Source of the DNA: Echinicola rosea
Lineage (GTDB): Bacteria > Bacteroidota > Bacteroidia > Cytophagales > Cyclobacteriaceae
Length of the DNA: 64,000 nucleotides
NCBI RefSeq assembly: GCF_005281475.1
Contig: NZ_CP040106.1
Span: 935,501 to 999,500, forward strand
Reading direction: 5' to 3'
Below the pieces are notes generated by a model. It was not told where the DNA came from. It saw only the letters and a program-made list of their open reading frames with translations, and did not search any database. Shown here one piece after another: positions 59,366 to 63,345 of this stretch. A program made the translations under genes and the position numbers. The first letter of the stretch is position 1, and each line of letters opens with the position of its first letter.

Positions 59366-59812
59366 TTATATCAATTCATTTGGCAATCTATTCATAATGC
59401 TGGTAAGATAGGTATTGGGTAGTTTCAGGGCTTTTCCACCACGGATGATGGTGTCATAATAGGCCTGATCGGGAAAGATATTGGATACGTTTTGGGATGA
59501 AATAAAGGTAAAAGCTCCGACTTCTCCATTTTTAGTTTGGACACTTACTGCTGTAAAATCATAGGTTTTTTCTGAATTCAAAAAATGCGAAACGTCGGCT
59601 TCGGCAATTTCATAGACGGCACCATACACATTTTCATTTGGGCTGTGGACGATATTGGCGCGTGCAGACCCATCGGGGTTAGGGTGGTTAAAGCGAAAAC
59701 CGTAACGGGGGAGCATGCCGATTCCTATGAGTGTGGGAGGGTGGTGCAGCCTTTCGACAAGGGTGAGCTGATCCAAATTGCTGGCATAGCCAAAGTACAG
59801 ACGTGTGGACAT
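59366..59812 (-). CDS. Gamma-glutamylcyclotransferase-like protein
   Basis: The 148-residue protein has the GGCT/AIG2 fold: the glycine-loop YFGYASNLD at the N-terminus, GVYEIA-like VYGAVYEIAEADVSHFLNSE with the candidate catalytic Glu, and a terminal YLTSIMNRLP. Members cyclise gamma-glutamyl groups or act on related amines; the substrate is unknown. It is single and borders the accessory island. Confidence 0.85.
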   Translation of the reverse strand: MSTRLYFGYASNLDQLTLVERLHHPPTLIGIGMLPRYGFRFNHPNPDGSARANIVHSPNENVYGAVYEIAEADVSHFLNSEKTYDFTAVSVQTKNGEVGAFTFISSQNVSNIFPDQAYYDTIIRGGKALKLPNTYLTSIMNRLPNELI

Positions 59813-59966: not shown

Positions 59967-60500
59967 CTACATTAGCTGTAATAAGTCGTCGACTATGAAA
60001 CCAAACAGGTTTGAGAAAGCATGCACAACAGTAGCGGTGATATATCCATTCATATCTTTCCGACTTCTGGCGATTAAGTAAAAGACAGCATATGAGATCC
60101 CTGCCAAAACAGTAAATCCTACGTAATAGATGTTATACCAATGTGACAATCCAAACAGGATGGATGACAGGGCAATGGCGAAAGATGTCCTTTTAGGAAA
60201 ACTAAATCTATTAAAAACAAACAGGGTAATTTCGATGATAGCTAGCTGGAAAATTAATGTTTCAAGCAAGGGGGCAAACAATACAGTCATCATAAAAATA
60301 TAACTTAGTGTTTGACCTTCCAGATACCCGATTTCCGTTATCTCATCTCCGGCAATAGAGCTTATGAGAACAGATAAAGTAAATGTAAACATGATTTCAA
60401 AAAGGCAAAAAGCCGTTAGCACCAACGATCTCTTTCCACTAAGGGAAAAGTGATAAATGTAGTGAAGAATGGGACGGAACCCTTTCAACCTGCTCATCAT
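59967..60500 (-). CDS. CPBP (Abi/CAAX-protease-like) membrane protein, intact
   Basis: A 177-residue polytopic protein with about five transmembrane helices and the three CPBP motifs: APLLETLIFQ (motif 1, with ET..Q in place of EE..R), SILFGLSHW (motif 2 histidine) and VVHAFSN (motif 3). CPBP proteins include Rce1-type proteases and bacteriocin self-immunity proteins. It lies just downstream of the double-glycine-peptide gene on the same strand, beyond that gene's terminator. An immunity or peptide-processing role is inferred from context only. Confidence 0.8.
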   Translation of the reverse strand: MMSRLKGFRPILHYIYHFSLSGKRSLVLTAFCLFEIMFTFTLSVLISSIAGDEITEIGYLEGQTLSYIFMMTVLFAPLLETLIFQLAIIEITLFVFNRFSFPKRTSFAIALSSILFGLSHWYNIYYVGFTVLAGISYAVFYLIARSRKDMNGYITATVVHAFSNLFGFIVDDLLQLM

Positions 60501-60529
60501 GAGTGATTTGAAATGATTAGATGTTATTT

Positions 60530-60566
60530 AAGAAAAGCAGCCTAAATTTCTGTTGATTTAGGCTGC
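60530..60566 (-). terminator. Terminator of the double-glycine-peptide transcript
   Basis: Perfect 11 bp arms GCAGCCTAAAT / ATTTAGGCTGC with an 8-nt loop, followed on the minus strand by TTTTCTT. It lies 291 bp beyond the peptide stop and 30 bp before the CPBP gene start. Confidence 0.88.
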
Positions 60567-60857
60567 GCACTATACTTTATTTACGTTAAGAATTAGTATT
60601 TCTAATACTCATTCTACCCTCCATTGTTCCAATACCTAATTTAAAATCCATAGCGCCCTCTCTAGCACCGCAATCAACCTTTGCAAAGGAATTTCATCAC
60701 CAACATGATTTCCGGACTCATTGCCTACTCATTCTTCCCTAAAAAGCCCGCAATCAAATACCAAACAGTCCAAACTAACCAAATAGCTCTGTTTTAAAAT
60801 CAAACTCAGGTTTATATAAAAGGAAAACATAGATGACGAACCCACTATGAACGGATA
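60567..60857 (-). other. Coding-like fragments 3' of the peptide gene
   Basis: This 291 bp stretch between the peptide stop and its terminator has no intact gene. In successive minus-strand frames it reads short protein-like pieces: HSGFVIYVFLLYKPEFDF, then WLVWTVWYLIAGFLGKNE, then GDEIPLQRLIAVLERALW. These suggest a small membrane-protein gene broken by frameshifts. They could also be chance open frames in AT-rich DNA. Confidence 0.3.
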
Positions 60858-61019
60858 TCAGTTCATGGTCATCATTGTGAATGTTGTATTTTCGTGTGCA
60901 TCATGGAACGCCCTTACAGCACGTCCAAAATAATATGCAACCATTCTAGAGAAATCATCTCCTCCATTTATTTTTCTTTCTTCCTTTAATGATAATTCTT
61001 TGAGATTTATACTTTTCAT
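60858..61019 (-). CDS. Double-glycine-leader peptide (bacteriocin- or signal-like)
   Basis: A 53-residue peptide too short for common gene-calling cutoffs. Residues 1-20 form a textbook double-glycine leader: LKELSLKEE followed by RKINGG, with L, S, E, I and GG at consensus positions (LSxxExxxIxGG). Cleavage after Gly20 would release a 33-residue core starting DDFSRMVAYYFGRAVRAF and ending in a Thr/Met-rich tail, without cysteines and with an amphipathic helical middle. Such leaders are cut by C39 peptidase-containing ABC exporters. A possible promoter (TTG, 21 bp, TACATTGG; 61091-61122) lies upstream and a strong terminator downstream. CPBP genes flank it on both sides. No family is recognised for the core. 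Confidence 0.7.
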   Translation of the reverse strand: MKSINLKELSLKEERKINGGDDFSRMVAYYFGRAVRAFHDAHENTTFTMMTMN

Positions 61020-61090
61020 CTGCTTTAGATTTAATTATTTAGTTGTGACTATTGGAAATTTTGAATAGCAGTATCTACTTTCTTTTAATT

Positions 61091-61122
61091 CCAATGTATC
61101 CATAACAGTTTATGCCAGCCAA
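61091..61122 (-). promoter_or_regulatory. Possible promoter of the double-glycine peptide
   Basis: On the minus strand TTG (61120-61122) is followed after 21 bp by TACATTGG (61091-61098), a one-mismatch TAnnTTTG box. The predicted leader would be about 65 nt. Speculative. Confidence 0.3.
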
Positions 61123-61232
61123 TAGTTATAGATCATAATGATCACGACCATTGCTGCAAAAATAGTTAGTATGGTTACCTACGTTTTTTAGCGCCTGATT
61201 TTTCTTTTGGCGGCTTTTAACTCGTCATTTAT
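61110..61232 (-). pseudogene. Eroded small membrane-protein frame
   Basis: One minus-strand frame reads INDELKAAKRKIRR, then two in-frame stops, then VTILTIFAAMVVIIMIYNYW. This is a basic head followed by one hydrophobic helix, the layout of small membrane proteins. The would-be start codon is ATA. It lies just upstream of the peptide gene. It may be a decayed gene of the same cassette; chance is possible. Confidence 0.35.
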
Positions 61233-61277
61233 GGTTGGTTATTCAGTTTTGCTTTTAGGGTATTCACATTCGACTGG

Positions 61278-61310
61278 ATATCAAAAGTCCGCATTTGCAA
61301 AGCGGACTTT
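61278..61310 (-). terminator. Terminator downstream of the frameshifted CPBP gene
   Basis: AAAGTCCGC / GCGGACTTT with a 9-nt loop and a short T-run on the minus strand, 25 bp beyond the CPBP stop. Confidence 0.8.
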
Positions 61311-61334
61311 CTGGAAGAGGCATTTGTAATGCCA

Positions 61335-61975
61335 CTAAACTTCCATAAATAACATCGGGATAATGAGTACAGCATTAAATACACCATGGTACAGGATAGA
61401 CCATTTTATCCCATGGTTTAGCCGAATGTAACTTAGGATAAGTCCGCCGACAAACTGACTTCCCACTAGAAAAGGGATCAGGTAAAAGTGGCTCAGAATA
61501 TCAAACTTGGTATAATTGCCCAGATGAATCAATGCAAAGAAGGCTGCCGAGATATAAACGACCATCTTCAGGTTGGGCGGAGATTTTTCATGAAGCATGA
61601 TCAAAAGATAAAGCAAATAGATCATAAGCGCCAAGCCTACAAACCAATCGGAGATAACGATCAGCAATGACAGTCCCAATCCCCACCAAATATACGGCTT
61701 CTTAAGGTCGAGGTGAAGCCTAAAAATTGTTTCTTCAAAAAGTGGGGCCACGACAATCCCCATGATAATTAAGAGTAATTTCCTTTCTTTAAACAACTTC
61801 TCAAAGGCATGACCAAGTTCATCAAAGCCCAATAAATGACCTATAAAAAGGATAGGTGCTATAAGTACAATTTTCAGTAAAAGCAGAAGTATAAATCACT
61901 GGCAGGTAAAGTGGTGTACTTTTCGGCCTTTTGGGGTAGGATCAGAAATTGTTTGAATTTATAAATGGTTTTCAT
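61335..61975 (-). pseudogene. CPBP (Abi/CAAX-protease-like) gene with a single frameshift
   Basis: The intact downstream part (165 residues from ATG 61832) has perfect CPBP motifs: APLFEETIFR (EExxxR), FALIHLGNY and HGVFNAVL. Upstream, the -1 frame continues back to an ATG at 61975 (MKTIYKFKQFLILPQKAEKY..LPASDLYF), and the second frame picks up as LLLLKIVLIAPILFIGHLLGFDEL. A one-base deletion near 61886-61888 explains the break; restored, the protein would be about 213 residues, the usual length. It may be a true pseudogene, a sequencing error, or still active from the internal start. Confidence 0.7.
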
Positions 61976-62178
61976 TTTTTGAATAGGTTCCCTTTTAAAA
62001 TTGTCCCCATATCAATTGACCTTAAGACTTTTACGCTTCATAAACAAGATATCCCATTCTTGCTTTCCTGGCAAAAATATACCTACGCAGGCATACGCAT
62101 TTTTGTACAAATTTTTGATAAGGATTAAACCTAACCGGATCTTGGGGATCAAAGGGTTATAAACAAAACATAAAAACC

Positions 62179-62660: not shown

Positions 62661-62739
62661 TGTTTTGGCAGTGGTTTTGATAACCTTAATGTCAAAAAAT
62701 CTGTTTAATATTGATTACCCGAATATAACAGTTATTACT

Positions 62740-63345
62740 ATGAAAGAACATGCAATAATAATTTTTCAAGAAAATCCGGTGCCCGGCAAGGTAAAAACAA
62801 GGCTTGGTGAGGTCATCGGTAGTGAGAAGGCAGTCGAAGTGTATGAATATTTGCTTCGCCATACCCACGAATTGGTGAGGGATTACCCAGCGGATGTGTT
62901 TGTTTACTTCCTTGATGAGGTAGATGAAGATTACCTCCTTAATGACCAATACCACCTTGGCCTTCAAGGAAAAGGGCTTTTGGGTGAGCGAATGCAGCGG
63001 GCATTTGCCGATGTCCTTGGCAAAGGATATGAAAAGGCACTTTTTCTTCGCGTAGCCGGCACCATGGAGCTCTCCAATGATATACTGGACGAGGCTTTTG
63101 AGGCACTGAGCTATCAGGATCTGGTGGTGGGACCTGCCCATGACGGGACTATTTACCTGCTGGGAATGACCCAAGTACATGATAAAGTGTTTGATCACAA
63201 TGATTGGAAATCAGACAGCCTCATCAGTGAATTGGCCCAAGAAGCCAAGGAAAGGGAACTGGAAATGCATAAACTTCCCGTACTTTATGAAGTAGAACAA
63301 TATGAGGACCTGAAAAGCTTAAAGGGTCTTCTAAATATTCAGTAG
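62740..63345 (+). CDS. DUF2064 (GT-A fold) glycosyltransferase-like protein
   Basis: The 201-residue protein has the family N-terminal motif ENPVPGKVKTRLGE (nucleotide-binding loop) and a late PAHDGTIYLLG. It resembles the TIGR04282 group linked to arsenosugar or other glycan synthesis. The usual mid-protein GSDxP metal/nucleotide motif is replaced by FLRVAGTMELS (about residue 102-112), so catalysis is doubtful. The start is the ATG at 62740; the in-frame ATG at 62665 is a leader without conservation. Confidence 0.82.
   Translation: MKEHAIIIFQENPVPGKVKTRLGEVIGSEKAVEVYEYLLRHTHELVRDYPADVFVYFLDEVDEDYLLNDQYHLGLQGKGLLGERMQRAFADVLGKGYEKALFLRVAGTMELSNDILDEAFEALSYQDLVVGPAHDGTIYLLGMTQVHDKVFDHNDWKSDSLISELAQEAKERELEMHKLPVLYEVEQYEDLKSLKGLLNIQ

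Follow-up and report, generated by a model that had tools for sequence, protein, structure and literature searches.

The window, a stretch of 64,000 nucleotides from the Echinicola rosea genome (contig NZ_CP040106.1, positions 935,501 to 999,500 of the forward strand), contains a 53-codon gene for a double-glycine precursor peptide, P0001, between two genes of the CPBP family. In the order of transcription the minus strand carries CPBP_b (61975-61335), P0001 (61019-60858), a hairpin (60566-60537), CPBP_a (60500-59967) and a flank gene (59812-59366). The precursor reads MKSINLKELSLKEERKINGG followed, after the GG, by DDFSRMVAYYFGRAVRAFHDAHENTTFTMMTMN, with zero cysteines in the core. Its parts are:

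60858-61019, minus strand: 53-codon double-glycine precursor peptide of the A type, P0001 (translation, and profiles built without P0001)
60960-61019, minus strand: leader of P0001, 20 residues, MKSINLKELSLKEERKINGG (translation and leader pattern)
60861-60959, minus strand: core of P0001, 33 residues, DDFSRMVAYYFGRAVRAFHDAHENTTFTMMTMN (translation)

An earlier note on this DNA had described the gene by its minus-strand frame of 53 codons, its double-glycine leader and its 33-residue cysteine-free core, and both the translation and the leader-pattern statistics agree with that description. The strict leader pattern (M..L[ST]xxE..[IV]xGG in a frame of 35-110 amino acids) was found once in the window, compared with 0.017 expected per simulated window (order-1 model, 60 runs), and was absent from 60 order-3 simulated windows. 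A looser pattern occurred 0.07-0.10 times per simulated window. The P0001 gene is real and goes beyond what chance would give. The helical moment of the peptide was reached by 5 of 1,000 shuffles, and the peptide contains AYYFG, the AxxxG form of a GxxxG-like motif. Sigma-70-type sites were fewer than in shuffles (5 observed, 8.9 in shuffles), and a weak TTG-N21-TACATTG site 103 nucleotides upstream of P0001 was not relied on. With PADLOC neither P0001 nor either of the CPBP proteins had a match at E <= 0.01.

The A family and its loci in relatives

As a single query among 5.8 billion proteins P0001 matched only itself, and no Pfam family was found at E <= 10. Two further matches in the 11 genomes of the genus (E 0.15 and 0.32) were taken as chance. 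Relatives were obtained with profiles, in which A designates the P0001-type peptide (profiles A4 and A5) and B the partner peptide (profile A6). A small profile, A3, made with peptides from CPBP loci and including P0001, led to A4 (14 members); A4 and the broader A5 (31 members) were both built without P0001, and A6 consists of 19 B peptides hand-picked from the loci. P0001 was picked up in its own genome by A4 at E 6.2e-6 and by A5 at E 1.4e-7. The earlier note had recognised no family for the core, a statement that no longer holds, as the core belongs to the family found by A3, A4 and A5. It had also proposed a search for homologues with adjacent CPBP genes; the direct query returns P0001 alone, yet profiles made without it do find relatives.

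The A4 profile gave 71 proteins at E <= 0.01 from 641 candidates and had matches in 6 of 395 genomes of the phylum, and A5 had matches in 25 of 390 genomes of the same taxonomic family (the own genome counted in both cases) and in 10 of 349 genomes of another taxonomic family. None of the 71 proteins has a precomputed Pfam domain, and all are nameless or named hypothetical protein except one, from Flavobacterium columnare, that is named bacteriocin. The core motif of the family, directly after NGG, is ESxWYWxAYGxG. WYW is found in 70 of the 71 members, a near-invariance that is inflated because the members of A4 and A5 were gathered by shared exact words. No curated model of the A-family core was found. 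In the literature searched, a scope that left out most subscription papers, the letters LWYWVAYG did not occur, and none of the matches listed described the A-peptide family, judged by title or start of abstract.

At positions V7, A8, Y9, G12 and R16 the core of P0001 has the commonest or second-commonest residue of the family. When anchored at the GG, its first 16 residues scored above all 20,000 shuffles (z 5.1), and at 12 residues a fraction of 0.0002 of the shuffles reached the score. Of 32 other frames with the double-glycine pattern, a set that includes duplicates and some spurious antisense frames, only one, itself a true member, was not outscored by the anchored core.

The surroundings of the A-profile matches, with the own genome excluded, gave 40 loci, of which five (L055, L093, L094, L095 and L096) supplied members of A5. 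A second profile peptide was found on the same strand within 400 nucleotides in 35 of the 40; the A and B profiles have leader columns in common and some of the matches are mainly leader. One locus, L136, was scored as unpaired with one of its two peptide frames below the threshold. C39 or HlyD was present in 30 loci (in L092 on no more than a weak ABC-protein match) and a helix-turn-helix (HTH) gene in 22. The CPBP genes that the earlier note proposed to look for were present in 23 loci, at most 1.5 kb from a peptide in 21. By their sequences, the complete loci pair A with a second double-glycine peptide, B, together with CPBP proteins, HlyD and a predicted C39 exporter. Within the genus, G002 has HlyD, C39, HTH, two double-glycine peptides and CPBP genes in a single locus, and G006 also has a complete locus. 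In another locus (L096:9061-13266) two successive sets, each of two double-glycine peptides and a CPBP gene, lie upstream of one HlyD-C39 pair.

Relatives of CPBP_a were found in 13 of the 390 genomes of the same taxonomic family, 11 of them outside the genus. Five of these 11 adjoin HlyD and C39 (L052, L053, L054, L055 and L060), and four of the five also adjoin double-glycine peptides. In L051 a peptide lies 4.7 kb away. Neither exporter nor peptide was found at L056, L057, L058, L059 and L061, of which L058 is near a contig end.

The chromosomal site, the CPBP genes and the exporters

The other features of the locus are the following:

59967-60500, minus strand: CPBP_a, 177 residues, PF02517, with ETxxxQ replacing EExxxR and with FxxxH and HxxxN kept
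61335-61895, minus strand: open part of CPBP_b with EExxxR, FxxxH and HxxxN; its own N-terminus is not in the same frame
61874-62011, minus strand: frame with the N-terminal piece of CPBP_b (ATG at 61975), another frame than the remainder
60537-60566, minus strand: terminator-like hairpin of 11 pairs between P0001 and CPBP_a (consensus match only)
61283-61309, minus strand: possible hairpin after CPBP_b (by eye; not listed by the terminator scan)
59366-59812, minus strand: flank gene by which the site is recognised in relatives, presumably gamma-glutamylcyclotransferase-like
62665-63345, plus strand: opposite flank gene, which we take to be DUF2064-like

The two CPBP genes flank P0001 on the same strand, as the earlier note had it, and both pass the PF02517 gathering cut-off of 22.4 (CPBP_a 34.6 bits, CPBP_b 31.2 bits); that both are intact was not borne out, since CPBP_b is broken in frame. 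They are two of only three PF02517 genes in the genome, which is one contig of 6,064,527 bases. Both catalytic motifs, EExxxR and FxxxH, are present in the frame-broken CPBP_b, and CPBP_a has ETxxxQ and FxxxH. The Q of ETxxxQ is invariant in 18 of 18 alignment rows. CPBP_a is by fold family a CPBP protein and at most a putative protease. Its AlphaFold2 model has a predicted local distance difference test (pLDDT) value of 89.2, and Foldseek gave zero PDB matches at E <= 0.001; Rce1 is not among the Foldseek matches listed, which carries no weight against a likeness to Rce1. The counterpart of CPBP_b in G009 is a single open frame of 223 residues (compared by eye). In two genomes of the genus the gene is broken near the start of the first membrane helix: in the window the reading frame shifts, and G007 (L032:4766-5425) has an in-frame stop.

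The site between the two flank genes could be compared in nine of the 11 genomes of the genus, the own genome counted; the flank gene was not found in G002 and was only partial in G003. At the site in G005 (L136) there are two double-glycine peptides and a CPBP gene. With this locus and the relatives found by the profiles, the refuting condition of the earlier note, that every relative would lack a homologous leader or core, does not hold. The A profile matches the second of the two peptides in L136 at 1e-6, and the lactococcin G-alpha model matches it weakly (E 0.0078); the first one was called B from its tail, by eye, and misses 0.01 with the B profile. The site in G006 (L184) also has two double-glycine peptides and CPBP. 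In G007 CPBP_b is interrupted by a stop soon after its start and is accompanied by a B-like tail that lacks a leader (genome-wide E 0.084). G009 has CPBP_b alone, and in G010 CPBP_b survives only as fragments of DNA (119 and 44 nucleotides, 93 and 100%). Neither peptide nor CPBP was found at E <= 0.01 by the profiles used at the sites in G001, G004 and G008. The cassette or parts of it are therefore found in six of nine genomes, which describes a recurrent satellite site without an exporter, where the window holds a partly decayed copy.

There are three C39 exporters in the own genome, all outside the window, and the earlier note's statement that export would have to be encoded elsewhere thus stands. 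The exporter locus at 1.99 Mb consists of HlyD, C39 and HTH and is of the type found in complete loci; no double-glycine peptide was found beside it with the leader pattern and the frames listed. At about 3.37 Mb a glycine-rich double-glycine peptide beginning MKFQELNQSELKEVNGG lies directly upstream of an HlyD and C39 exporter (L007:7191-7415). The third exporter (L004/L009, about 5.24 Mb) comes after a 490-residue protein with the look of a partial LanM-type lanthipeptide synthetase. Reading the frames of 60501-61340 by eye revealed no B peptide, and the genome-wide search with the B profile agrees.

The HTH protein found beside C39 exporters is represented in the own genome by a copy at about 1.995 Mb (L008:9870-10199), which scores above the HTH_11 (PF08279) cut-off and has its closest relative in E. 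shivajiensis (79% identity). It ends in GPEETENIYGG followed by TYIPIIPEWLPQWKWLNEAV. A GG or AG motif followed by a tail of 7-34 residues was found in 41 of 45 full-length distinct HTH frames, and in 36 of the 41 it stands exactly 67 residues after a TGxP-like landmark. In all 52 distinct HTH frames were examined, those beyond the 45 being truncated or lacking the landmark; a GG is also present in three of the frames that lack it. The arrangement resembles a predicted transcription factor that carries a double-glycine leader within it. No paper on such a tail was among the matches listed in the literature searched.

Likeness to two-peptide bacteriocins and rival explanations

Class IIb bacteriocins have precursors with double-glycine leaders, as P0001 has, and two peptides side by side, which were found in 35 of the 40 loci of relatives and not in the window. 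The antibacterial activity of a class IIb bacteriocin depends on the presence of both peptides. The closest likeness is to lactococcin G and enterocin 1071 (NF038035, NF038034). At E <= 0.01 the lactococcin G-alpha model matched 12 of 31 A-type members and the G-beta model 7 of 31, and among the B-type members the class IIb model TIGR03949 matched 9 of 19 and the lactococcin G-beta model 4 of 19; some of the matches detailed extend over leader and core and others over the leader only. The best A-type member detailed had 26.7 bits with NF038035 (cut-off 37). Several family members score above the cut-off of the 15-residue leader model TIGR01847; P0001 is not one of them. The A5 profile aligns nearly in register with the solved lactococcin G-alpha, at an E of 1.5 only. 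The helix-helix motif GxxxG, as defined for two-peptide bacteriocins in part of a published account (PMC8538875), is enriched in the B cores (14 of 19 in this hand-picked set, shuffle mean 5.4), and AxxxG is enriched in the A cores (56 of 69, shuffle mean 25.3). Two adjacent double-glycine precursors in the loci of relatives, weak matches of A to alpha and of B to beta, and GxxxG-type motifs are thus shared with lactococcin G and enterocin 1071. The present system differs from them in scores below the curated cut-offs, in a Gram-negative Bacteroidota host, in the presence of CPBP and of HTH with a double-glycine tail beside the exporter, and in the single peptide of the window. By the curated test the peptides are not members of the lactococcin G family.

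Other systems share single features. CPBP/Abi proteins adjoin the peptide genes also in plantaricin EF/JK and sakacin 23K, where PlnI, PlnL and SkkI are implicated in self-immunity in the relevant part of the source (PMC8538875); here CPBP_a has ETxxxQ and immunity is putative. The CPBP-type protein SilX from the Angicin region of Streptococcus anginosus has Q for R in motif 1, EExxxR (PMC9298176, in the part dealing with SilX), and in this motif-1 Q, within a bacteriocin region, it resembles CPBP_a; SilX is part of the Sil quorum-sensing locus, for which no search was made here. The bacteroidetocins are likewise double-glycine peptides of Bacteroidetes with a peptidase-ABC exporter, and the part of the source that describes them (PMC6671954) gives them four cysteines, a gene for a thiol oxidoreductase and no immunity protein, whereas P0001 is without cysteine and CPBP genes are present. 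In the pneumococcal rtg locus, too, several double-glycine peptides use one common C39-type exporter, and the difference lies in the peptides and in the Rgg/SHP-type regulation given in the section of the source concerned (PMC7018657).

Taken together, a mode of action like that of class IIb systems is the most likely one for the A/B system, and P0001 is probably an antibacterial peptide precursor destined for export, the half of a class IIb-like pair that resembles lactococcin G-alpha, in a partly decayed satellite cassette. In the complete loci both the removal of the leader behind GG and the export of A and B would fall to the C39 peptidase-ABC exporter with HlyD. The pair would insert as helices into the target membrane and permeabilise it, and the CPBP proteins would protect the producer or assist production. 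In the window copy A and CPBP_a are still open, CPBP_b is broken and B is missing. If made, A would need one of the three distant exporters, of which the HlyD-C39-HTH locus at 1.99 Mb is the likeliest. The A peptide of the window may be inactive or dependent on the B of a neighbour, and CPBP_a may still confer immunity. Of the undescribed peptide system suggested in the earlier note, the bacteriocin-like nature, judged by the relatives, and the CPBP partners remain; a stand-alone new kind does not, the complete loci being two-peptide and lactococcin G-like.

Several results weigh against this interpretation. P0001 is without the WYW of the family, and its core has a net charge of -1; bacteriocins are commonly cationic. 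With NF038035 P0001 gave 11.2 bits (cut-off 37, E 0.32), no match detailed passes the lactococcin G or TIGR03949 cut-offs, and GxxxG is not enriched in the A cores (20 of 69, shuffle mean 22.9). In the own genome the B profile found no B: its matches were P0001 (6.4e-4) and another peptide, the latter by its leader only. The N-terminal and remaining frames of CPBP_b differ and overlap at about 61874-61895, and the hairpin at 60537-60566 between P0001 and CPBP_a makes a simple operon doubtful. With a core-only A5 profile P0001 had 6.8 bits, which 3 of 5,000 shuffles reached; B cores reached 6.1 bits, a poor separation, and in the window another frame scored 6.6 and the P0001 frame 5.4. From these modest core-only scores and the matches of the leader-bearing profiles it is concluded, on sequence comparison, that P0001 is a diverged member of the A family and that the leader supplies part of its score.

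The same modest core-only score, the shortness of the frame and the direct search that found no homologue would suit a frame that lies by chance between two CPBP genes and happens to start like a leader. This is very improbable, given a leader pattern expected 0.017 times per window, the recovery of P0001 by two profiles built without it, the position between two of the genome's three CPBP genes and the sister cassettes at the same site. A dead remnant, in which the cassette decays, the peptide is neither made nor exported and at most CPBP_a is useful, would agree with the broken CPBP_b, the B peptide not found in the genome and an exporter that is not adjacent, as well as with the partial contents of the same site in G007, G009 and G010 and the empty profile searches in G001, G004 and G008. 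It is nevertheless unlikely: the frame, leader and GG of P0001 are intact and fit profiles made without it, and CPBP_a is open with FxxxH and HxxxN kept.

By analogy with SilX/SilCR the orphan peptide could also be a pheromone or inducer with CPBP as its processing or receptor partner. The P0001 copy is unpaired with a charge of -1, CPBP_a has Q at the position of the Q of SilX, the BlpC pheromone model gives weak matches with two A-type members (E 1.3e-4 and 0.02), and SilX is, according to the part of the source concerned, required for SilCR-dependent bacteriocin production and dispensable for immunity (PMC9298176). Pairing of the A type with a second peptide in 35 of 40 loci speaks against such a role, and no histidine kinase or response regulator was noticed beside the cassette among the open reading frames of the window, where no dedicated search was made; a signal peptide is accordingly rather improbable. 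Another tentative and on the whole doubtful alternative is an undescribed Bacteroidota branch of two-peptide systems in which the HTH protein is itself a substrate of the exporter and A and CPBP_a of the window are a satellite of the pair at 1.99 Mb. The exporter would then clip or export the HTH tail, by which the peptide genes would be informed of the exporter's own traffic, and the orphan A with the ETxxxQ CPBP would be kept as a signal, an immunity module or a partner for the B of a neighbour.

With the A profiles mostly unnamed double-glycine peptides become searchable, together with their partner peptide and the exporter, CPBP and regulator genes, and if active they would be two-peptide bacteriocins of Gram-negative Bacteroidota. 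It also becomes testable whether CPBP proteins with ETxxxQ retain a part in immunity or processing, and whether a transcription factor can be the target of a C39 exporter.

Small membrane frames are found near the CPBP genes. Two leaderless ones with B-like tails (L032:5750-5878, INWEDAKNGF; L035:9390-9527, NLDDFKAGL) lie beside CPBP genes and are perhaps remnants, or something else. In the window a membrane-helix-like reading, VTILTIFAAMVVIIMIYNYWLA, with stops upstream, lies on the minus strand at 61110-61224 between CPBP_b and P0001, and may be what is left of small membrane frames such as those found after CPBP_b in G007 and G009.

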